The notes below the pieces were generated by a model, which worked only from the letters and a program-made list of their open reading frames with translations, was not told the origin of the DNA and made no database searches. Of a stretch of 64,000 nt of DNA, positions 21,112 to 32,385 are shown one piece after another (the stretch's first letter is position 1; each line of letters begins with the position of its first letter). The DNA is taken from positions 50,063-114,062 of the IMG/VR virus record IMGVR_UViG_3300048914_000231. The stretch is one strand, 5' to 3'. The stretch comes from a virus. The translations under genes were made by a program, and so were the position numbers.

Positions 21112-22359
21112 TCAGCGAGACTTGCCGCCGATCTCGATCTTCCGCAGCGGGAATTCCAGTTCGATGCAGTAGCCGCCAGCGTCGGCGCTGTGTTCAACCC
21201 CGGCCGCCTTGTCGACGTCGCGCGAACCCGGCTTGTAGATGGTCTGCTCCAGTGCATTGATGAAATGCTTGCAGCGGATGTCCACGCGCAGCCGGATCGT
21301 GCCGTCGGCCGTGCGCAGCATGCGGTTGACCGCGTTGACGCGGTCGGCCACGGCCGGGTGCTTGCGCCGGAACTTGATGCGCTTGAAGCCCTTCTCGCGC
21401 AGGATGTCCAGGTCAGTCTCGCCGCGCGCGTGCTGGCGCTGGCCGCCGGCCGGGTCGGGGTAGATGATGATCTGCAGCATATGGCGCCAGTAGCGCTTTT
21501 CCAGCTCCTCGCACACCTCTTCGGTATTGGATGAGAACAGCACGATCTCGTCGACCGCCCACACCTCACCGTTGGGCTGTGGCTGAAAGATCACGGTCGA
21601 CATCGGGTCGATGTTGAAGTCCATGCCGACCCAGATTGGCAGCTTCGGGTTGAACGGGTACTGGCCCACGTGTTCGTTGCGGTCAAACGGATAGTAGACG
21701 CGGCCGGACATGGTCTCGAAACTGGCTTCGAATTCCTGCTTGAACGATTTTTCGTCCATGTCCTGCTTGGCCGCCTCGATCTCCGAGATCGGGATGAACG
21801 GCGACGTGATGGTCGGGAACTGCCAGGATTCCCATGCGTGCTTGGCCACGTTGGCCGGATCCTGGCCGCGCTTGTACAGTTCGTACAGGTAGTTGTAGGC
21901 CTTGGGCGTGCCGATGAAAATCGCGTCGCCGCGACGGTCGGCCAGAACCGGGCGCAGAACCTTGACCCAGGTATCGGCATCGATGTCCTGAAATTCGTCG
22001 AGCACCAGGAAGTCGACACCGACACCGCGCAGGGAATCACCCTTGTCGGCGCCCTTGAGCTCGATGACGGTGCCATTCAGTAGCGTGACTTCGAGGCGTG
22101 TCTCGTTGACCTTCTTGACCCAGCGGCGCGGGATTGCGTCGAGCAGGTCGGACCACATGATCTGCTTGGCCATCTTGTAGGTTGGGGCGACGTACCAGAT
22201 TTTGCGCTTCTTGACGCGTGCGCGCGTGATCATCAGCGTCTTGGCCAGCTGGGTCTTGCCCCACCGGCGGCCAGCCACCACGACGCGAAAACGCGCCTGC
22301 GACTTGTAGACGACCATCTGCTTCGGATGCAGGGTCAGGCTGGCAATCTTGGCGGCCAT
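21112..22359 (-). CDS. terL: Terminase large subunit
   Basis: A 415-residue packaging motor. The ATPase domain shows Walker A AGRRWGKT (residues 29-36) and Walker B FLVLDE with an FQD follow-on (117-125). The RNase-H-like nuclease domain starts near GMDFNIDPMSTVIFQ with its first catalytic aspartate. It pumps DNA through the portal and cuts the concatemer. The start overlaps the terS stop (TGATG). Length is at the low end for TerL but all core parts are present. Confidence 0.95.
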   Translation of the reverse strand: MAAKIASLTLHPKQMVVYKSQARFRVVVAGRRWGKTQLAKTLMITRARVKKRKIWYVAPTYKMAKQIMWSDLLDAIPRRWVKKVNETRLEVTLLNGTVIELKGADKGDSLRGVGVDFLVLDEFQDIDADTWVKVLRPVLADRRGDAIFIGTPKAYNYLYELYKRGQDPANVAKHAWESWQFPTITSPFIPISEIEAAKQDMDEKSFKQEFEASFETMSGRVYYPFDRNEHVGQYPFNPKLPIWVGMDFNIDPMSTVIFQPQPNGEVWAVDEIVLFSSNTEEVCEELEKRYWRHMLQIIIYPDPAGGQRQHARGETDLDILREKGFKRIKFRRKHPAVADRVNAVNRMLRTADGTIRLRVDIRCKHFINALEQTIYKPGSRDVDKAAGVEHSADAGGYCIELEFPLRKIEIGGKSR

Positions 22360-23715: not shown

Positions 23716-24606
23716 TTAAGCGGGGTTGAGCGGCTCGGTTACAGCCTGGTTGTCGAACGCCAGTACGTTGATGCGCTCGGGCAGGCTGCGGCCAAAGTCC
23801 GGGTTGGTATAAATGCCATACAGCGGGCTGGCCAGCACCAGCTGCTGCAGGCTCTTGAGCAGGTAACCGACTTCCATCGCGTCGACCCGGGACGTGCCGT
23901 TGGCGCGGTTGTCGCCCGATTTCTCCATCGACGAGCAGCGATAGTAGAACTTGCGCATTTCGTCGACGCATTTGGCGCGCACCGCCGGCGGGAATGCGTC
24001 GAGCTCGGCCCTGATGCCCACATAGTCCATCGGCACCGAGCGGAACCAGCGCCCGAAGAACGCCAGACCCTTTTCGTAATGGCTGCTGCGCTTGGGTTTT
24101 GTGAAGCGCATGCCGGCTTTTGCCGCGAACGGGTTGAATTTGCTCATCGACGACTGGAATTCGACGAAGCGGCAGCCGGTCATGCGCATCATGAGGTTCT
24201 GCATGCGGTAGGCGATGCCGGCGCCGCGGAACATCGTGTCCAGCACCAGACGCGAGTTCGTGCAGCTGTGCTCGTTCAACCACATCGCGCGGGTTCGGTT
24301 GATCAGCTTCGTGTCGCGTCCATTCTGGTTCGGGCGCATGTGGGGCATCGCTTCGTTACGGCCCGACAGCAGCATCTTGGGCACGGTCATGACGCCCACG
24401 CCGATCACCTGACCATCGAGCACGCAGCGGTAGATTTTCGGCCCGATGCCGAGGTTTTCCGCCTTGTAGTGCAGCTCGTGCAGCAAGTTCCAGTCTTCCT
24501 TGGTACCGCGCTCGACGTAGACGCGGTCCAGCAGCGACAGGCGGTGGTTGGCCGGCACCGGCCGGCGCTCGACCAGCAGGTTGTCGTTGTCGATCAGGAC
24601 GGTCAT
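23716..24606 (-). CDS. GNAT-fold acyltransferase-like protein of the ABC-associated type
   Basis: A 296-residue protein; the ATG at 24606 overlaps the preceding peptide stop. A GNAT-like core is visible: CVLDGQVIGVGVMTVP as strands 2-4, and TMFRGAGIAYRMQNLMMRM as the RGxG-type cofactor loop and helix, then FVEFQSSMSKFNPFAAKAGM. ABC ATPases fused to a GNAT-like domain form COG2401; here the two are separate genes in one operon, which supports a joint role. Mom of phage Mu is a GNAT-fold DNA-modifying enzyme, so base modification is a reasonable hypothesis. Substrate is unknown. Confidence 0.75.
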   Translation of the reverse strand: MTVLIDNDNLLVERRPVPANHRLSLLDRVYVERGTKEDWNLLHELHYKAENLGIGPKIYRCVLDGQVIGVGVMTVPKMLLSGRNEAMPHMRPNQNGRDTKLINRTRAMWLNEHSCTNSRLVLDTMFRGAGIAYRMQNLMMRMTGCRFVEFQSSMSKFNPFAAKAGMRFTKPKRSSHYEKGLAFFGRWFRSVPMDYVGIRAELDAFPPAVRAKCVDEMRKFYYRCSSMEKSGDNRANGTSRVDAMEVGYLLKSLQQLVLASPLYGIYTNPDFGRSLPERINVLAFDNQAVTEPLNPA

Positions 24607-24656: not shown

Positions 24657-24727
24657 GTCGGCCACTTCCAGATGAGAATGACGCCCACGGCAATCATGCC
24701 GAGACCAAAACAGTCAAACGTGCTCAT
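24653..24727 (-). CDS. 24-residue membrane peptide
   Basis: Frame MSTFDCFGLGMIAVGVILIW ending KWPT. The ATG overlaps the thioredoxin stop (ATGA) and its own stop overlaps the next ATG. One transmembrane-like segment with a tryptophan-lysine end. Coupling on both sides argues for real translation; function unknown. Confidence 0.5.
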   Translation of the reverse strand: MSTFDCFGLGMIAVGVILIWKWPT

Positions 24728-25035
24728 GCCGGCACTCCCGCCGCGGCCAGGAATGAACGCAGCCTGGCGTCGGTCTGGCCGCCCGAGACCGATGCCTGGG
24801 CAGCGCCATCCCTGAACACGGTCAGGGTCGGTACGCCGCGCACGCCGTGCACGCTGGCGAGAGTGCGGTGTTCGCCGGCGTCGACGCCGATCAGCCTGAA
24901 ACCCAGTTCCGCGGCGAGCGCCTCAACCAGCGGCTTCATGCCCTTGCAGGGGCCGCACCAGCTGGCGTGGAACATGACGACGGTGGTGCCGGCGCCGACG
25001 TCTGCGGCGAAGTTTTCGGGGGTGGTGTTGTGCAT
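24724..25035 (-). CDS. Thioredoxin-like protein
   Basis: A 103-residue protein. Active site WCGPCK near residue 25, a cis-proline in GVRGVPTLTVF, and full thioredoxin length. AAGGA precedes the ATG at 25035; the longer frame is a shadow of the ABC gene. It could reduce the phage ribonucleotide reductase, whose C-terminus ends in a CESC pair, but its place inside the ParB/ABC/GNAT operon suggests a role there too. Confidence 0.9.
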   Translation of the reverse strand: MHNTTPENFAADVGAGTTVVMFHASWCGPCKGMKPLVEALAAELGFRLIGVDAGEHRTLASVHGVRGVPTLTVFRDGAAQASVSGGQTDARLRSFLAAAGVPA

Positions 25036-25037
25036 GT

Positions 25038-25730
25038 TCAGTCCTTGATGGGGTCGGTCGGGTGCGGCGGCTCCCTGAAGCCGTCGGCGCTGGCGCCGGG
25101 GCGCAGAATGCGCACCTTTTCCCGGTAGCGTTTTTCGATATAGAGGCTGGGCGCCAGGTCGTCGACCATGTCGCCGTGAGTGGTGGCGACAATCACGGTG
25201 GCGCCCACCTTGCGCGCGATCTTCTGCAGGTTGAAGGCGAGCACCTTCGCGGTCACGCGGTCGAGCACGGCCAGAAATTCGTCGGCGACCCATACCTGCG
25301 CGCCGGATTCGATGATCTTGGCCAGGCGGAAGCGGTAGCGTTGGCCGTCCGACAGTTCGGCGGGTTTCCGGATGAACAGGTAGGCGTCGTTCAGGCCGGC
25401 GATCGACAGGAAGTTCAGTGCCTCGGTCGTGTTCTTGCCGATCTGGTCGATCAGCGGGCAGTCCAGCAGCGGCACCTCGTCGATGGTAACAACATTCAGG
25501 CCGCCCTCGACCATGCGTTCTGCCAGTTCGCGCAGCACGGTCGACTTGCCGGCGCCGGACTGGCCCGTGACGTACACAATGTCGCCCTGTTCGATGTCGA
25601 TCGGCTGGTTGTCAAAGACGACGAATTCCTTGTCATCCAGGCCCAGGCCGAAGGCTTCGGCGATCTCCAGCACGCGGTCGGTGCGCTCGACGGTTGTATG
25701 AAACCGCTTGTCGATTTTGTATGTTGTCAT
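25038..25730 (-). CDS. ABC-type ATPase without membrane partner
   Basis: A 230-residue soluble ABC ATPase. Walker A GQSGAGKST (near 55), an LSDGQ signature in place of LSGGQ (near 130), and Walker B VWVADEFLAVLDR (near 155) with the catalytic acidic residue, then an H-loop region TTHGD. No permease gene is nearby, so it is not a transporter. It resembles the ATPase half of COG2401 ABC-GNAT fusions. GGAG precedes the ATG; the start overlaps the upstream stop (ATGA). Likely powers or gates the GNAT/ParB system. Confidence 0.85.
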   Translation of the reverse strand: MTTYKIDKRFHTTVERTDRVLEIAEAFGLGLDDKEFVVFDNQPIDIEQGDIVYVTGQSGAGKSTVLRELAERMVEGGLNVVTIDEVPLLDCPLIDQIGKNTTEALNFLSIAGLNDAYLFIRKPAELSDGQRYRFRLAKIIESGAQVWVADEFLAVLDRVTAKVLAFNLQKIARKVGATVIVATTHGDMVDDLAPSLYIEKRYREKVRILRPGASADGFREPPHPTDPIKD

Positions 25731-25909
25731 TGCTGTCTCCAGGCTTTCAGGCACTGCGCCGGCGACAGCGCATCCATTTCGGTTTTCGGGTTGACGCAGC
25801 TGGCATGTACCAGCACGCGTACGGTCGCCCAGTACACGACGCGGCGCGGCAGACAGTACGCGATCGCGCCGCACAGGTGGTCCAGGATGTCGCTGATCAG
25901 TTCTTTCAT
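25727..25909 (-). CDS. Small cysteine-containing protein
   Basis: A 60-residue frame coupled at both ends by ATGA overlaps between the ParB-like gene and the ABC gene. N-terminal helix MKELISDILDHLCGAIAY, a basic PRRVVYW turn, then a second hydrophobic helix. No known motif. The double overlap in a co-transcribed operon is the main support. Confidence 0.65.
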   Translation of the reverse strand: MKELISDILDHLCGAIAYCLPRRVVYWATVRVLVHASCVNPKTEMDALSPAQCLKAWRQQ

Positions 25910-26550
25910 GCGATCCCCGCGAACTGGCTGACGAATTCGACGAAGGCGTCAGCACCCTTCTTGCCGGTATCGGCCTCGATCTGTGCCATGAACATCGCGA
26001 TGGCGCGCTGGTCTGCGCCCCTGACGGTCTTGAAGCCCAGCGCCTGCGCGATCGGCACGCCCTTTTCGGTCGCGGCCGCGATTTGCCCCTTGGTTTCGAC
26101 GGCCTGCGCGGCGATTTCGGCGTCCAGGTCGGTGACGAAGGCGGCATCATTGACCTCGCCCAGATCGGCGGTCATGAAGTCCAGTTCCTTCCTGTCGAAG
26201 AACAGGTCCATCGAGAAGTCCAGCGTGGCCAGTTCCTGCTGCAGCAGGTCGGTGTCGATGTTGCCGATGGCGACGCGGTTGTCGGCCAGGCGCAGCGCGC
26301 GCACCTGCGCCGGCGTCAGGTCGTCGCGCACCCACACCGGCACCTTTCTGTCGCCGCGCGACAGGCCGGCCAGGCGCCGGCCGTGGCCGGCAATGATCAC
26401 GCCATCCTTGTCGACGACGATCGGCTGGGTCCAGCCGAATTCGTCGATGGACTTTCTGATCTTCGCCACCTGGGCGTCGTCGTGGATTTTCGAGTTGAGC
26501 TCGTAGGGCACCAGGCGGGCGATGTCCCAGACTTGAATATTCGGTTTCAT
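25906..26550 (-). CDS. ParB/sulfiredoxin-fold protein 1
   Basis: A 214-residue protein, start MKPNIQVWDIARLVPY at 26550, overlapping the upstream stop. The ParB/Srx core is clear: IRKSIDEFGWTQPIVVDKDG, the GHGRRLAG box near residue 60, and LTPAQVRALRLADNRVA. It has no centromere-binding helix-turn-helix of true partition ParB after the core; the C-terminal 90 residues are alanine-rich helices. In phages this fold is often linked to DNA modification or nuclease activity; CTP binding is also possible. Second of two ParB-fold genes in this operon. Confidence 0.85.
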   Translation of the reverse strand: MKPNIQVWDIARLVPYELNSKIHDDAQVAKIRKSIDEFGWTQPIVVDKDGVIIAGHGRRLAGLSRGDRKVPVWVRDDLTPAQVRALRLADNRVAIGNIDTDLLQQELATLDFSMDLFFDRKELDFMTADLGEVNDAAFVTDLDAEIAAQAVETKGQIAAATEKGVPIAQALGFKTVRGADQRAIAMFMAQIEADTGKKGADAFVEFVSQFAGIA

Positions 26551-26726
26551 GGAATGAATGAGAGCAGATAAAAGATGCACCACAAGAAGATCAGGACCGG
26601 CGTGCAGAAAATCAGGAAAGTTGCGGCCAGAAGTTCGCAATGCGCCTCGCGCGTGGTGGCGATCCAGAATGTGACCATCAGGACCAGGACGACCAGGACG
26701 AACGGGACGACATACCAGTGGATCAT
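26547..26726 (-). CDS. Small two-segment membrane protein
   Basis: A 59-residue protein with hydrophobic segments at about residues 4-24 and 35-57 and a short polar loop between them (TTREAHCELL). The start overlaps the stop of the 40-residue gene and the stop overlaps the ParB start, so it is coupled. Function unknown. Confidence 0.65.
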   Translation of the reverse strand: MIHWYVVPFVLVVLVLMVTFWIATTREAHCELLAATFLIFCTPVLIFLWCIFYLLSFIP

Positions 26727-26845
26727 CGCTTGATCTCCTTCATGAGCGCGTGGTAGCCGGCGACCATGAGGGCCGCGGTGCCGGCAGCGATGGTCGTGCA
26801 CGCGCAGACCGTACAGGTCCAGACGAAAACGTCCGGCGGGGTCAT
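26723..26845 (-). CDS. 40-residue membrane peptide with cysteines
   Basis: Start MTPPDVFVWTCTVCACTTIA at 26845 overlaps the stop of the Acb2-like gene. Three cysteines precede an alanine-rich membrane-like segment and a basic tail (KEIKR). Coupled on both sides. Function unknown. Confidence 0.6.
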   Translation of the reverse strand: MTPPDVFVWTCTVCACTTIAAGTAALMVAGYHALMKEIKR

Positions 26846-27132
26846 CACAGGGCCTCCGGCTGGGCCAGCGCGCGCACGAGCGCCATCACGCCCTCCTGAA
26901 AGTGCGTGCGGCCGATGGAGGCCCAGCGCTCCGGTTCGGCGGCGTTCATGCGCATGGATTCGCGCACCTGATGCTCGTCCTCCATGCTGCGGCACTTGTC
27001 GCGCTGGGCGGCGATATGCTCACGCACCTCGCGCACCAGTTCCAGCAGCACCTTTTCATGCAGCTTGACCTTGTTGATCAGGTCCAGCGTATCCTGATCG
27101 AGCTGGCGATAACCTTTGATCGGGTTGCTCAT
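26845..27132 (-). CDS. acb2: Acb2-like anti-CBASS cyclic nucleotide sponge
   Basis: A 95-residue helical-hairpin protein. The N-terminal IKGYRQLDQDTLDLINKVK and the C-terminal RWASIGRTHFQEGVMALVRA followed by LAQPEAL match the pattern of the phage Acb2/Vs.4 family, which forms hexamers that sequester cyclic oligonucleotide signals of CBASS (and in some cases Thoeris signals). Tyr8 and Lys23 have the same 15-residue spacing as the ligand-binding Tyr and Lys that I recall for PaMx33 Acb2 (Y11 and K26). The 2-gene position early in the operon fits an early-expressed anti-defence protein. Confidence 0.85.
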   Translation of the reverse strand: MSNPIKGYRQLDQDTLDLINKVKLHEKVLLELVREVREHIAAQRDKCRSMEDEHQVRESMRMNAAEPERWASIGRTHFQEGVMALVRALAQPEAL

Positions 27133-27141
27133 GTGGTTCTC

Positions 27142-27306
27142 CTATGCTGCTTCCGGCAGACGCCGGAAGCGGATGGGGTGTTCGGTGAGGGTGTCTTCCG
27201 CGAGTGGCTCGAACATGTCGCCGTCATCGCATTCGTCGCACATGTAGGAGAGCTCCTGGTTGGAGCAGTCCTCGCAAAATTCGTAGCCCTTGTTGCAGCG
27301 CGCCAT
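27142..27306 (-). CDS. Small zinc-ribbon-like protein
   Basis: A 54-residue protein with cysteines spaced CEDC and CDEC (FCEDCSNQELSYMCDECDDG), a likely zinc knuckle, followed by an acidic and then basic tail. It lies between the second ParB-like gene and the Acb2-like gene in the coupled operon. May bind nucleic acid or a protein partner; nothing more can be said. Confidence 0.65.
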   Translation of the reverse strand: MARCNKGYEFCEDCSNQELSYMCDECDDGDMFEPLAEDTLTEHPIRFRRLPEAA

Positions 27307-27307
27307 G

Positions 27308-27967
27308 TCAGACCCCGATGTCCTTGAAGATGTGCACCAGCGCATTGCCGGCGTTGGTGAGGCTGTCCTCGTCGTCGAAGCGCTGGCGCTTTTTGACGGC
27401 GTTGATCTTGGCGGTGATGGTGTCGACGTCCTCGACCGGCACCTTGAAGCGCATGATGGCGTGGGTCTGTGCGGCGCGAACGGTCGGCGCGCCCGGGGCC
27501 GGGCCGGCGGTATCGTCCAGATCGAGCGCGTCAAGCTCGTCGAGCGCTATATTGCTGGTATTGAAGATCGATTCGAAATCGACGTCCGTATAGGGCAGGA
27601 AGACGCCCAGCTCGCCGGGCGTGCCCAGTTCGTCGAGCAGCTTGGACAGGGCGATGCTGTCGTCGTTGCCGTAGCGGCCATTGTCGACCAGACCGATCTC
27701 CTTGGCCTGCCTGTCGCTGATGCTGCCGAGGTTGATGACCGGCACCTTGTCGATTTTCAGGCGGATCGCCGAGTCCCGGCGGTGTGCGCCACCCAGGATT
27801 TGCAGCGTGCCGTCGGCAAGGGTGCGCACGATGATCGGCTTGAACATGCCGAAGCGCTTGACCGAGGCGTCGATTTTCGCCTCGTTCTCCGGGGAGACCA
27901 CGTTGGTGTTCCAGGGGTTGGGCTGGAGCGTGTGGGGGTCGGCGTAATGCTGGGTGGTAGTTGACAT
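27308..27967 (-). CDS. ParB/sulfiredoxin-fold protein 2
   Basis: A 219-residue protein and first gene of the operon, starting MSTTTQHYADPHTLQPNPWN at 27967 (17th codon of the longest frame). ParB/Srx core: IDASVKRFGMFKPIIVR, GGAHRRDSAIR in place of the GxxR box, then DRQAKEIGLVDNGRYGNDD. The C-terminal region is acidic with a separate alpha-beta segment (HAIMRFKVPVEDVDTITAKI). Overall similarity to ParB 1 is only in the core. Two different ParB-fold proteins in one operon could act as a pair. Confidence 0.85.
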   Translation of the reverse strand: MSTTTQHYADPHTLQPNPWNTNVVSPENEAKIDASVKRFGMFKPIIVRTLADGTLQILGGAHRRDSAIRLKIDKVPVINLGSISDRQAKEIGLVDNGRYGNDDSIALSKLLDELGTPGELGVFLPYTDVDFESIFNTSNIALDELDALDLDDTAGPAPGAPTVRAAQTHAIMRFKVPVEDVDTITAKINAVKKRQRFDDEDSLTNAGNALVHIFKDIGV

Positions 27968-28038: not shown

Positions 28039-29766
28039 ATGGAAAAAGTAACGATCGCGCGTAACGCCGTGACAGCCATGCTGCACAAGCCCAGTCGCGA
28101 TGTAAAACTGGAAGTGCAGGCGATTCTGTCGTACGCGGTCGCCGGCGCCGAGCATGCGATCGCCTTCAAAAAGGGGGTGTGGGACGGGCGCTCGTCGTTC
28201 CTGGACTTCAGGAACGGCACCTTCCCGGCCGGCTTTACGCACTACGTCACGGCGCACCTGCGGCGCAAGGGGTACGAGGTGCAGATCGCCCAGAAGGCCC
28301 TGCCCGAGCCGCTCGGCCCGGAAAACCCGGTGGTCGACGCCTTTCCGGAAGACCCGCGCTACGACTACCAGATGGAAACCGTGCGGCGTCTGGTCAAGCA
28401 CGGCCAGATCATCGCCCAGATCGCCACCGGCGGCGGCAAGAGCCGTACCGCGCGCCTGGCGTACGCGCGCATCAACCGCATGACCCTGTTCATCACGACG
28501 CGCTCGATCCTCATGTACCAGATGAAGGACAGTTTCGAGCGCGACCTTGGCGTGCCGGTATCGGTGCTGGGCGATGGCCAGTTCGGTCACACCACGTCGG
28601 ACGGGCGCCAGGCGGTGCGCAAGATGTGCGTCGGCATGGTGCAGACCCTGGCGGCCAAGCTGAAGGAAAAGACGGTCGAGGGCGAAGTCGAGGCCGTGAT
28701 CGACGCGCTGGTGGCCAGGGAGCTCAAGGCGGTCAAGGCGCTGGAGAAGAAGCTGGTCGACGCCGGTGCCACGCCGGCGCAGGTCAGGGCCCGGGTCAGG
28801 CAGCTGGAAGAACAGCAGCTGGCCGCGCGCTCGGACTCGAAAAAGATCCAGGCCGATTGCGCCGTCAAGGTGCATGAGCACATGGCGATGCGCGCGCGGG
28901 TGATTGAATTGCTGGGCCGGTTCGAATTCGTGATCATCGAAGAGGCGCACGAGGCATCGGCCGAGGATTTCTACAACGTCATGCAGCACTGCAAGAGCGC
29001 GCACTACCGCATGGCGCTGACGGCGACGCCGTTCATGAAGGCCGACGAAGAGGCGAACATGCGCCTGATGGCGGTGTCCGGCCCGATCGCGATCAAGGTG
29101 TCCGAGCAGACCCTGATCGACCGCGGCATTCTGGCCCAGCCGCATTTTCGCTTCATCCCGTGGGCCGGCAAGCCGCCCAAGCTGTTCAAGCACACCGGCT
29201 GGGCGTCGGCGTACCGGCTTGGCATCACCGAGCACGAATGGCGCAACCAGACCGCGACCGCCGTGTGCCGGCGCTTTGCCGAGTATGGTCTGACGTCGAT
29301 GGTGCTGGTACAGCACACCGCGCACGGTGAGACCGTCAGGCGCCTGATGCTGGCCGCCGGCCTGCGCGTGGATTTCATCCAGGGCGAGGATGACCAGGAC
29401 GGGCGCAAGGCAGCACTGCAGCGCCTGGCGCGCGGCGAACTCGACATCCTGATCGGCACCACGATCCTCGACGTCGGCGTGGACGTGCCGGCCGTCGGTC
29501 ACATCTGCCTGCTGGGTGGTGGCAAGGCCGAGGTGCAGCTGCGTCAGCGTATCGGGCGCGGCCTGCGCGAGAAGAAGAACGGCATGCCGAACCTGTGCTT
29601 TGTGACCGACTTCGCCGACACGCTCAACGAGCACCTGCACAACCATGCCAGACAGCGTCAGGCGATCATCAGGGACACGCCGGGATTCGACCGCTTCATC
29701 CTCTCCGACGGGCGCGACTTCGACCTGGAGGCGCTCGGCTTCAGGCGGCTGGCGGCAGCGGCGTGA
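28039..29766 (+). CDS. SF2 DNA helicase, UvsW-like
   Basis: A 575-residue protein. Motif I ATGGGKS (near residue 135), motif II IIEEAHE (near 300) in place of DEAH, motif III LTATPF, and motif VI QRIGRGLRE (near 500). Between motifs I and II is a charged coiled insert of about 70 residues (LKEKTVEGEVEAVIDALVAR and on). The N-terminal 110 residues resemble the UvsW DNA-binding start. In T4 the relative unwinds branched DNA and R-loops. It heads the only plus-strand block and has an operator-bearing promoter. The ribosome site is weak. Confidence 0.85.
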   Translation: MEKVTIARNAVTAMLHKPSRDVKLEVQAILSYAVAGAEHAIAFKKGVWDGRSSFLDFRNGTFPAGFTHYVTAHLRRKGYEVQIAQKALPEPLGPENPVVDAFPEDPRYDYQMETVRRLVKHGQIIAQIATGGGKSRTARLAYARINRMTLFITTRSILMYQMKDSFERDLGVPVSVLGDGQFGHTTSDGRQAVRKMCVGMVQTLAAKLKEKTVEGEVEAVIDALVARELKAVKALEKKLVDAGATPAQVRARVRQLEEQQLAARSDSKKIQADCAVKVHEHMAMRARVIELLGRFEFVIIEEAHEASAEDFYNVMQHCKSAHYRMALTATPFMKADEEANMRLMAVSGPIAIKVSEQTLIDRGILAQPHFRFIPWAGKPPKLFKHTGWASAYRLGITEHEWRNQTATAVCRRFAEYGLTSMVLVQHTAHGETVRRLMLAAGLRVDFIQGEDDQDGRKAALQRLARGELDILIGTTILDVGVDVPAVGHICLLGGGKAEVQLRQRIGRGLREKKNGMPNLCFVTDFADTLNEHLHNHARQRQAIIRDTPGFDRFILSDGRDFDLEALGFRRLAAAA

Positions 29767-30458: not shown

Positions 30459-30754
30459 AAGACAGGGCACCCGGGCCGAAGCCGGTTGAGGTGTGCCGGC
30501 ATGTATTCCGGCACGCGACGCTGAAGACGATCAATGCCAGGGTTGACCACATCGAATGGATCTTCTTCGAAGGTGAGAAATGGCCGCGCCAGCTGGTGTA
30601 TTTCACGAATGGATCGACCACGTTTGACGCCGCCGCACAGTGGACGCTGGCCCAGGCCAATGCGCTGGCCGAAACGGGCAACTGGACCAGGGAAATCTTC
30701 ATGACCGTGGAAAACGACAGGCCGGATGCATCGTACGGTACGGAGGTATGGTGA
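30455..30754 (+). CDS. Unknown protein of array operon, GTG start
   Basis: A 99-residue protein starting at a GTG at 30455 that overlaps the previous stop (GTGA). Contains HIEWIFFEGEKWPRQLVYF and a helix DAAAQWTLAQANALAETGNW; reads as a compact alpha-beta protein. It ends TEVW, with the DNA GAGGTATGGTGA forming both the ribosome site and the start of the next gene: the first of eight identical 7-nt overlaps. Confidence 0.75.
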   Translation: MKDRAPGPKPVEVCRHVFRHATLKTINARVDHIEWIFFEGEKWPRQLVYFTNGSTTFDAAAQWTLAQANALAETGNWTREIFMTVENDRPDASYGTEVW

Positions 30755-31029
30755 ACCTGCTGTTTATTGAACTGCATTCTGAAAAACTCAGGGATACCGC
30801 GCCGTTTGTGACGGCGTACGACCTGGATTATCCCGGGCCGAACAAGCGTCAGTGGCGCGTCGACAGGGCGCGCGGTGTCGAGTCCGGGGTCAATCGCGAT
30901 GGGAGTGGCATGCGGGGTGTATGGGCGTATCTGGCGGCCGGCACCTGGCTGCAGCTGACGCAGCAGGAAGCCTATACCAAATTTCCTGAACTGCAGACGG
31001 CGATCGAAAACTGGGTGGAGCCATGGTAA
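30748..31029 (+). CDS. Unknown protein of array operon
   Basis: A 93-residue protein (MVNLLFIELHSEKLRD start). Beta-rich first half with YDLDYPGPNKRQWRVDRARG, then WAYLAAGTWLQLTQQEAYTKF and a VEPW end. It may relate distantly to the previous gene. Joined to both neighbours by 7-nt ATGGTxx overlaps. Confidence 0.75.
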   Translation: MVNLLFIELHSEKLRDTAPFVTAYDLDYPGPNKRQWRVDRARGVESGVNRDGSGMRGVWAYLAAGTWLQLTQQEAYTKFPELQTAIENWVEPW

Positions 31030-31379
31030 ATCTGAGCAACAGCATAACGTACGAGAACTACCTGTACCTGCGCCGGCAGCTGGGTGAACAGGAAAACGGC
31101 GACTGGCCGTCGTCATCATGGAACATCATGTCGGCATCAGGCACGCAAAACGTGATCAACACCATGCTTGCCAAATGCGAAAACCTGATGCGCGAGCGTG
31201 ATCTGTCATGGGAGGCGTACAAGAAAGTGTGGAGCAAGGGGTCGGTGCCTGCGTATTTAAATCCGACCGCCTGGGAGGAAGCGCCGCTGTTCATCAAGGC
31301 GGCCATCATCAAGCCGCGTGAGGTGGGTATCGTTGACGTGCGCGAGGACGTGCCGCAAAGCGAGGTGACGCCATGGTGA
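31023..31379 (+). CDS. Array paralogue 1, two-unit protein
   Basis: A 118-residue protein that seems to hold two copies of the array unit: ITYENYLYLRRQL with W at about 32, and LSWEAYKKVWSKG with W at about 83, ending SEVTPW. The unit pattern is (S/T)-aromatic-x2-Y-x3-7, a tryptophan about 15-20 residues on, then a hydrophobic helix. It may be the fused product of two ancestral single-unit genes. Function unknown. Confidence 0.75.
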   Translation: MVNLSNSITYENYLYLRRQLGEQENGDWPSSSWNIMSASGTQNVINTMLAKCENLMRERDLSWEAYKKVWSKGSVPAYLNPTAWEEAPLFIKAAIIKPREVGIVDVREDVPQSEVTPW

Positions 31380-31588
31380 GATACCGGCCCGACGGACGCA
31401 AAATTGACACGAGCTACGCCAACTATCTGCGTCTGGCCGGTTTGAACCTGATCAGCGCCGACAACCAGCTGACGTCGAACGACTGGAACTGGCTTGATAT
31501 GGACGGCAAGGCTGGTGAAATCGAGCGCCTGATGAACCTGGCCGAAGTGCGCGACCGGCCGGAAAGCGGCGGGGTGGTGGCATGGTAG
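31373..31588 (+). CDS. Array paralogue 2
   Basis: A 71-residue protein. Unit pattern: TSYANYLRLAGLNL, then NDWNWLDMDGKAGEIERLMNL, ending GGVVAW. Both ends form 7-nt overlaps with neighbours. The N-terminal 12 residues (RYRPDGRKID) extend the unit. Function unknown. Confidence 0.75.
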   Translation: MVRYRPDGRKIDTSYANYLRLAGLNLISADNQLTSNDWNWLDMDGKAGEIERLMNLAEVRDRPESGGVVAW

Positions 31589-31785
31589 AGCGTCTGTCCT
31601 ACCGTCATTACAAGTCGCTTCATTTTGCCGCCGGTTATGGAGAAGGTGAACTGGCCGACATCGTCATGTGGATGGATACGCCCGACCAGCTGAAACTCGC
31701 CGAGATTGAAATGCTGGAAGAACGCCTGCGCGAGATTCGTGACGAGGTGTCCGATATACCAACCAGCATGGTGACGCCATGGTAA
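31582..31785 (+). CDS. Array paralogue 3
   Basis: A 67-residue protein. Unit pattern: LSYRHYKSLHFAAGYGEGEL, a WMDTPDQ turn, an acidic helix AEIEMLEERLREIRDEV and a TSMVTPW end. Coupled to both neighbours by 7-nt overlaps. Function unknown. Confidence 0.75.
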   Translation: MVERLSYRHYKSLHFAAGYGEGELADIVMWMDTPDQLKLAEIEMLEERLREIRDEVSDIPTSMVTPW

Positions 31786-31982
31786 AAGATTCAGCCTACC
31801 CTTACGAACGTTATGTGGAGTATTTCAAGATCGTCTGGCCAGGCATGCACCCGATGGATGAATATGAATGGTATGTGCGGCATGGACGCACGGCGCGCGC
31901 GAGGACGATCAAGATACTCGTTCGGCAGATTCCAGATCATCAGCGCAAAGCGCCATTCTTGAAGGAGAGGGTCACATGGTAG
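31779..31982 (+). CDS. Array paralogue 4
   Basis: A 67-residue protein, the most divergent member. YPYERYVEYFKIVW replaces the usual start of the unit, followed by EYEWYVRHGRTARARTIKIL and an ERVTW end. More basic than the others. GGAGAGGGT before the next ATG is the ribosome site. Function unknown. Confidence 0.7.
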   Translation: MVKDSAYPYERYVEYFKIVWPGMHPMDEYEWYVRHGRTARARTIKILVRQIPDHQRKAPFLKERVTW

Positions 31983-32182
31983 ACGTGAGCTATGACCGTT
32001 TTTACGCTTTGCGCAGGGCGCTGGATATGCCAGAAGAGGGGGAGGTGGCGCGCAGCAGGTGGGAGATTCTGCCGGAGGCGCATCGGCAAAGCGTCATCGC
32101 CATGATGACCGGCACGCTCAACGGGCGCAACACCGTCCTGTTCCCGTGCGACGCGCCTGAAAGTGAGGTGGTGCCATGGTAG
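31976..32182 (+). CDS. Array paralogue 5
   Basis: A 68-residue protein starting MVDVSYDRFYALRRALDMPE at 31976; the longer open frame upstream belongs to another reading frame of the previous gene. Unit pattern continues with RWEILPEAHRQSVIAMM and ends PESEVVPW. Close to paralogues 6 and 7. Coupled by 7-nt overlaps. Confidence 0.75.
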   Translation: MVDVSYDRFYALRRALDMPEEGEVARSRWEILPEAHRQSVIAMMTGTLNGRNTVLFPCDAPESEVVPW

Positions 32183-32385
32183 AGGATTGCACTTACGAGC
32201 AATACAAGGCGGCCTGCGTATCGATCAACGAAAAAGCATGTTGGACGCGAGGAGGATGGCTGGGCTTGGTCAAAGACGCGCGGATCGCGGTCATGGCAAA
32301 CCTGTTGAATGCCGGGGCCTGGTGGCCCGATAGGGAGCTTGGCGAGGGTGAGGATGTTCCAGAAACTGAGGTGACGCCATGGTAG
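32176..32385 (+). CDS. Array paralogue 6
   Basis: A 69-residue protein. CTYEQYKAACVSINEKA, then GGWLGLVKDARIAVMANLLNA and the VPETEVTPW end that matches paralogues 1 and 5. Coupled by 7-nt overlaps at both ends. Function unknown. Confidence 0.75.
   Translation: MVEDCTYEQYKAACVSINEKACWTRGGWLGLVKDARIAVMANLLNAGAWWPDRELGEGEDVPETEVTPW

Follow-up and report, generated by a model that had tools for sequence, protein, structure and literature searches.

An Acb2-family gene as probable exchangeable cargo of a conserved ParB/ABC/GNAT block in an SSU5/nickie-type phage

A 95-codon reading frame between two ParB-like genes of a large phage raises the question of whether it encodes a cyclic-nucleotide sponge of the Acb2 family and, if so, whether the sponge belongs together with the genes around it. 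The DNA analyzed here (the window, 64,000 nucleotides) covers positions 50063-114062 of a virus record that is 114,062 bases long, the record of a 114-kb phage of the SSU5/nickie type. The original prediction, made from the letters alone, had proposed an Acb2-like anti-CBASS protein embedded in an operon with a possible modification system and, from this position, a combined defence-evasion unit. On the basis of sequence comparison and structure prediction, we consider it probable (about 0.82) that the gene codes for an Acb2-type sponge and is exchangeable cargo between the two ParB-like genes of a conserved ParB/ABC/thioredoxin/GNAT block. The genes concerned are the following, with positions in the window.

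28039-29766, plus strand: UvsW/DEAD-type helicase (PF04851, PF00271), the divergent border of the block
27308-27967, minus strand: ParB1, a ParB-N-domain protein (PF02195 2.2e-8, phrog_723 9e-60), the upstream border of the slot
27142-27306, minus strand: 54-aa Cys-cluster protein, a common slot companion that falls in a cluster of 49 related small slot ORFs
26845-27132, minus strand: acb2, predicted from sequence to encode a 95-aa Acb2-family cyclic-nucleotide sponge (Tyr8, Lys23)
26723-26845, minus strand: 40-aa ORF, its start overlapping the acb2 stop, with no Pfam or phrog match
26547-26726, minus strand: 59-aa hydrophobic, membrane-like ORF with no Pfam or phrog match; a similar ORF is present in L009
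25906-26550, minus strand: ParB2, ParB-like (phrog_930 1.3e-79; PF02195 0.0004, under the cut-off), the downstream border of the slot
25727-25909, minus strand: 60-aa ORF in the ParB2-ABC slot, read from the translation
25038-25730, minus strand: ABC ATPase of a predicted ABC-GNAT system (PF00005 1.5e-10; phrog_293 5e-46; phrog_11143)
24724-25035, minus strand: thioredoxin (PF00085 1.5e-21)
23716-24606, minus strand: GNAT-fold protein, partner of the ABC ATPase (phrog_886 1.7e-130; AlphaFold2 pLDDT 89.9)
21112-22359, minus strand: probable large terminase subunit downstream of the block, from its translation and gene order

The acb2 gene and its product

The acb2 ORF begins with ATG and ends with TGA, a Shine-Dalgarno-like AGGAGAA lies a few bases upstream of its start, and its stop shares a single base with the start of the 40-aa ORF (TGATG). 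It lies at the position given in the original prediction, on the minus strand, and the motifs named in support of the family assignment (IKGYRQL, RWASIGRT and ALVRALAQP) were all found in the translation, where Tyr8 and Lys23 are indeed 15 residues apart. Just upstream of acb2, at the end of the 54-aa ORF and before the ribosome-binding site, there is a GC-rich 9-bp inverted repeat, GCTTCCGGC GTCT GCCGGAAGC (about 27146-27170, minus strand), which is partly retained in L009 only. We considered this hairpin as a conserved regulator of acb2 and rejected the idea, as most relatives are without it. No Rfam family was found between 20 and 32 kb of the window.

The assignment to the Acb2 family was backed both by sequence searches and by the predicted monomer fold. 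An HMM search against the Acb2/Tad1 hairpin family had been named as a check in the original prediction, and PF24729 (Acb2_Tad1_hairpin) matched the product with 51.7 bits (cut-off 27), covering positions 1-58 of the 58 in the profile. The product also matched phrog_717 (E 1.5e-22), and phmmer against the PDB gave Acb2 p26 (8h2j, 8ixz) as the sole strong match (E 1.1e-15), with the next at 0.46. When acb2 was used as a tblastn query, 58 phage records were found at 29-58% identity. Taken together, the p26 E-value, PF24729, phrog_717 and the 58 tblastn records show that the similarity is not due to chance. The Acb2 proteins of the Pseudomonas phages PaMx33 and PaP2 (p26; 8h2j, 8h2x, 8ixz) resemble the window protein in length, in the predicted hairpin and in the Tyr/Lys pair, and have in common with it the core RW..GKT/RT..Q.G.MA..RA.AQP, at 38-41% identity. 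However, the N-terminus is MSNPIKGYR in the window protein and MDNQHKKIKGYR in PaMx33/PaP2 Acb2, and the latter is encoded in another type of genome among other neighbour genes.

Alignments placed Tyr8 and Lys23 in register with Y11 and K26 of PaMx33 Acb2 and with Y8 and K23 of the T4 protein. Y11 and K26 are the ligand pair in the PaMx33 structure. In an alignment of 63 sequences, all of the invariant residues are present in the window protein, which retains Tyr8, Lys23, Asn20, Thr76, Gln79, Met83, Arg87 and the QP. Its start departs from the usual M(D/E)NQH in lacking Gln-His, which are near-invariant; these residues are also missing in T4 Vs.4 and in a handful of contig proteins that start with PPIKGYR or QPKITGYR. 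For T4 Acb2, cyclic dinucleotide binding has been reported to be lost or disrupted in the Y8A variant, and Phe82 stacks on the ligand (PMC12657218). We rejected the possibility that the terminal Leu95, which replaces a Phe, marks a broken site: relatives end in Cys or Val or without the residue, and Leu95 is no evidence of such damage because T4 Phe82 corresponds to Ala90 of the window protein and not to its last residue.

An AlphaFold2 monomer, built with 62 relatives from viral contigs, has a pLDDT of 90.6 and forms a three-helix hairpin (helices 13-49, 53-65 and 67-90), the helical-hairpin fold expected of Acb2. With this model, Foldseek gave Acb2 (8h2x/8h2j) at the top (E 3e-6, TM 0.81-0.90), followed by T4 Vs.4 (7uq2), and the matches after these two were insignificant. 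The VIA aligner gave Z values of 11.2 to 8h2j and 9.4 to 7uq2, while unrelated helical chains stayed at 8.7 or below; taken alone, values of this size would be weak evidence in the case of a helical hairpin, yet they agree with the sequence result. Although only about 25% identical to the window protein, T4 Vs.4/Acb2 is like it in fold (Foldseek TM 0.63-0.73) and has Tyr8 and Lys23 at the same positions. Tad1 belongs to the same PF24729 hairpin family. However, Tad1 has an N-terminal beta part, an antiparallel sheet, whereas the 95-aa window protein starts straight at the hairpin and is predicted to consist of three helices with no beta-sheet. Judged from the alignments and the model, the gene is a genuine member of the Acb2 family, and by analogy with that family its product would bind cyclic nucleotides and inhibit CBASS. 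Annotation of Acb2 in phages is already routine (PMC13348362). Many Acb2 homologues in Pseudomonas phage records are named 'NAD/FAD-utilizing enzyme', and this name looks wrong.

The block and its predicted DNA modification

The neighbours on which the original prediction relied, namely two ParB-like proteins, an ABC ATPase, a thioredoxin and a GNAT-fold protein, are real, and the genes of the block are tightly packed. The order helicase (divergent)/ParB1/slot/ParB2/ABC/(thioredoxin)/GNAT/terminase is kept in SSU5, nickie, RHEph10, ANB28 and most of 98 viral and bacterial contig loci, which include some fragments. SSU5/nickie/AB-like phage-plasmids have the helicase, two ParB, ABC, GNAT and terminase genes ordered as in the window; however, only about 26 bases lie between the two ParB genes of SSU5, which leaves no room for a sponge, and none is present there. 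The terminase was placed by the same order as the annotated terminases of nickie, RHEph10 and the A. baumannii plasmids. The GNAT-like gene matches phages of the SSU5, nickie, RHEph10 and ANB28 types, mostly of 103-122 kb, and is matched by 905 plasmids.

The GNAT-like protein had no match in Pfam, and its model has a GNAT fold in comparison with PDB structures; Mom of phage Mu (8bv8) aligned over 142 residues with a Z value of 11.2, on a level with other GNATs. The profile phrog_11143 gave two matches at successive positions, a strong one to the ABC protein and a weak one to the GNAT-like protein, and in two public records the annotation of the GNAT gene is that of an ABC-type ATPase with a fused, predicted acyltransferase-type domain. 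A GNAT coupled to an ABC ATPase has been predicted to be an acyl modification system for DNA bases, still uncharacterised (PMC7824862). The window resembles that predicted system in having an ABC ATPase with a GNAT-fold partner; here, the two are separate genes, with two ParB-like genes and a thioredoxin around them. Because of the GNAT fold, phrog_11143, the record annotations and this publication, the phrase 'possible modification system' was a fair description of a published prediction. By analogy, the block probably adds an acyl group to the bases of the phage DNA.

By its position, within a block whose GNAT resembles Mom, the 54-aa Cys-cluster ORF recalls the zinc-finger protein Com of phage Mu; it had no significant match in Pfam, nor did it match Pfam Com. 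The name of phrog_886, the family of the GNAT protein, is 'ABC transporter ATP-binding subunit', which looks wrong. On the plus strand at 30748-32385, the window has a run of about seven short ORFs of 67-118 aa. Each begins with ATGGT.., overlaps the last 7 bases of the ORF before it and has Trp before the stop; this looks like a translationally coupled tandem array.

Sponge genes in the slots of the block

Acb2 is found between ParB1 and ParB2 in about 10 of the 88 loci with a readable interval: in the window, L009, L013-L018, L121 (added by a later search) and probably L023. L033 has it immediately ahead of the ABC gene. The Acb2 relatives in the same slot are 40-57% identical to the window protein. 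The block is present but Acb2 absent in L012, L019 and L025, which are near relatives, and only 7 of the 80 best-matching Acb2 contig loci have the block. The window and seven contigs have a PF24729 gene inside the block, and in five cases such a gene lies outside it (four short Acb2 genes and one Tad1-like gene, in RHEph10); because of these five, the family is not tied to the block. We rejected Acb2 as a fixed part of the block, since most block loci are without Acb2 and most Acb2 genes are without the block. In RHEph10 (L202, 101000-101900), the Tad1-like frame of 136 residues lies about 5 kb from the block, which has Tad2 too, and L072, L074 and L075 have Tad2 in the block and a short Acb2 elsewhere, a stacking of sponges.

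Tad2 (PF11195) and Acb4 (PF13876) are families unrelated to Acb2, yet they occur in the same slots of the block in relatives. The ParB1-ParB2 interval contains a Tad2-like protein in eight loci (up to 85.6 bits) and an Acb4-family protein in four (PF13876, 87.7 bits), and in further loci Tad2 or Acb4 is found between ABC and GNAT or between ParB2 and ABC. Acb4 of SPO1 has been placed in PF13876 (PMC11722364). The four Acb4 loci correspond to 107-kb Acinetobacter baumannii plasmids, in which the gene is annotated as 'Gp49 family protein'. A search of the window's record found no Tad2; Acb4 also gave no match there, in a search in which the control genomes were likewise without a match, whereas the family was found in the records of relatives. 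By whole-record searches, Tad2 is a single-copy gene inside the block in 9 of the 9 phage records having it, and Acb4 is inside the block in 5 of 5. Among the 31 records with a length of 60 kb or more, with HNH_3 genes as the control, 13 of 18 sponge genes were inside the block (4.3% of the DNA), compared with 0 of 19 HNH_3 genes (Fisher 2.4e-6), a p-value that is an indication only, because the uniform null is simplistic and relatedness makes the records non-independent.

As unrelated sponges stand at the same spot in relatives, the block looks like a site where phages swap counter-defence genes in and out. The window gene is a new Acb2 member whose counter-defence slot has apparently gone undescribed; our literature search, with most subscription journals outside its range, returned nothing on point about the slot or about anti-defence genes of SSU5-like phage-plasmids. 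The interpretation in the original prediction is partly supported, and its combined defence-evasion unit has to be rephrased. Acb2 itself is optional in the block, and the idea is supported indirectly by Tad2 and Acb4 in the same slots and by the ABC-GNAT prediction (PMC7824862).

Other proteins also occupy the slots. A 204-aa phrog_1810 protein fills the ParB1-ParB2 slot of A. baumannii phage-plasmids, in L079 (4617-5231) as well as throughout L078-L086 and in L204 (2129-2731; A. baumannii pA52-1). Its N-terminal domain is phrog_419, which is present in 769 of 50,697 phage records and partly covers the Acb4 domain; the phrog_419 relative in L061 has 82 residues. Between ParB2 and ABC, a metallopeptidase-like phrog_1233 protein (HEV.HG motif) is often found, in L024 (1783-2151) and 34 related loci.

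A tree of the four core proteins calls for 13 changes of sponge state (family and slot); with each family counted singly, there are seven changes for Tad2, three for Acb2 and two for Acb4. The sister of the window, and its closest relative, is L009, the flanks of which are about 81-91% identical to those of the window (ParB1 83%, 54-aa ORF 83%, ParB2 88%, ABC 86%, GNAT 91%), with the thioredoxin at 73%, whereas its Acb2 is only 40% identical. In the Acb2 tree, the window protein groups with those of L016, L015 and L121 (96/93), and that of L009 is on another branch. The discordance between flanks and Acb2 in L009, together with the Acb2 tree, suggests in-place replacement of Acb2. The block-borne Acb2 genes need five changes, and a single clade of them was marginally rejected (AU p 0.043) with a weak tree of 107 columns.

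Alternative explanations and biological meaning

One possible explanation is that this is an ordinary Acb2 gene in an accidental position, the region merely tolerating small genes and sponges being common among the small genes of phages, so that the pattern of Acb2, Tad2 and Acb4 would have no functional meaning. PF24729 is indeed found outside the block too, and most block-bearing relatives have no sponge in the slot, which is also occupied by small ORFs of membrane-like character, by unknowns, and by proteins resembling HNH (L087) or a metallopeptidase (L069). However, all of the phage records with Tad2 or Acb4 have it in the block, in two or three different slots, the HNH_3 genes of the records of at least 60 kb never do, and the core tree calls for at least several independent gains; we therefore regard an accidental position as doubtful. 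A further step would be to take the slots as a dedicated docking site for second-messenger sponges, tied to the DNA-modification operon, in which case some tenants with no assigned function (phrog_1810, phrog_419) would be undiscovered sponges. We hold this to be rather unlikely.

Alternatively, the sponge and the ParB/ABC/GNAT proteins might work as a single machine, the nucleotide bound by the sponge being one that the block makes or needs. The tight packing, the stop/start overlap with the neighbouring ORF and the recurrence of sponges in the block would fit such a machine. However, SSU5, nickie and most loci have a complete block but no sponge in it, sponges that differ in fold and ligand substitute for each other, and most Acb2 genes are elsewhere, all of which makes a single machine highly improbable. 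Finally, CBASS inhibition might have been lost as the protein drifted in function or ligand preference, for instance towards gcADPR of Thoeris or towards avoidance of the Panoptes decoy. The divergent N-terminus without NQH and the 40-57% identity to same-slot relatives point in this direction, and Acb2 variants that bind differently or not at all are favoured under selection by Panoptes (PMC12657218). However, the ligand-pair and other conserved residues listed above, from Tyr8 to the QP, are retained and the predicted fold is intact, and we consider such a drift improbable.

We favour the reading of acb2 as a sponge gene carried as exchangeable cargo. Its product would be a short helical-hairpin sponge that assembles as a hexamer like its solved relatives, and the hexamer would bind cyclic di- and probably trinucleotides from host CBASS enzymes, so that the CBASS suicide effector would stay off during phage replication; perhaps cA3-using systems would be silenced too. 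This sponge step draws on what is known of the Acb2 family (PMC12657218, PMC12043709). The sponge would travel as cargo of a block that probably protects the phage DNA by modification, and the slots of this block would repeatedly take up Acb2, Tad2 and Acb4-family genes and exchange them in place. The sponge and the DNA modification may cooperate, with acb2 putatively co-expressed with the block. Carriage of a sponge is costly where Panoptes-type systems exist (PMC12657218), and the gain, loss and exchange of sponges may possibly be due to this cost.

Acb2 is already known, and the useful part of the present finding is the syntenic slot, where three unrelated sponge families occur at the same position within a single phage group; phage-plasmids of clinical Acinetobacter baumannii belong to this group. 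The slot predicts where to seek new counter-defence proteins in the hundreds of plasmid records that hold the block. Furthermore, with sponges joined to a predicted DNA-modification operon, a combined evasion strategy becomes testable.
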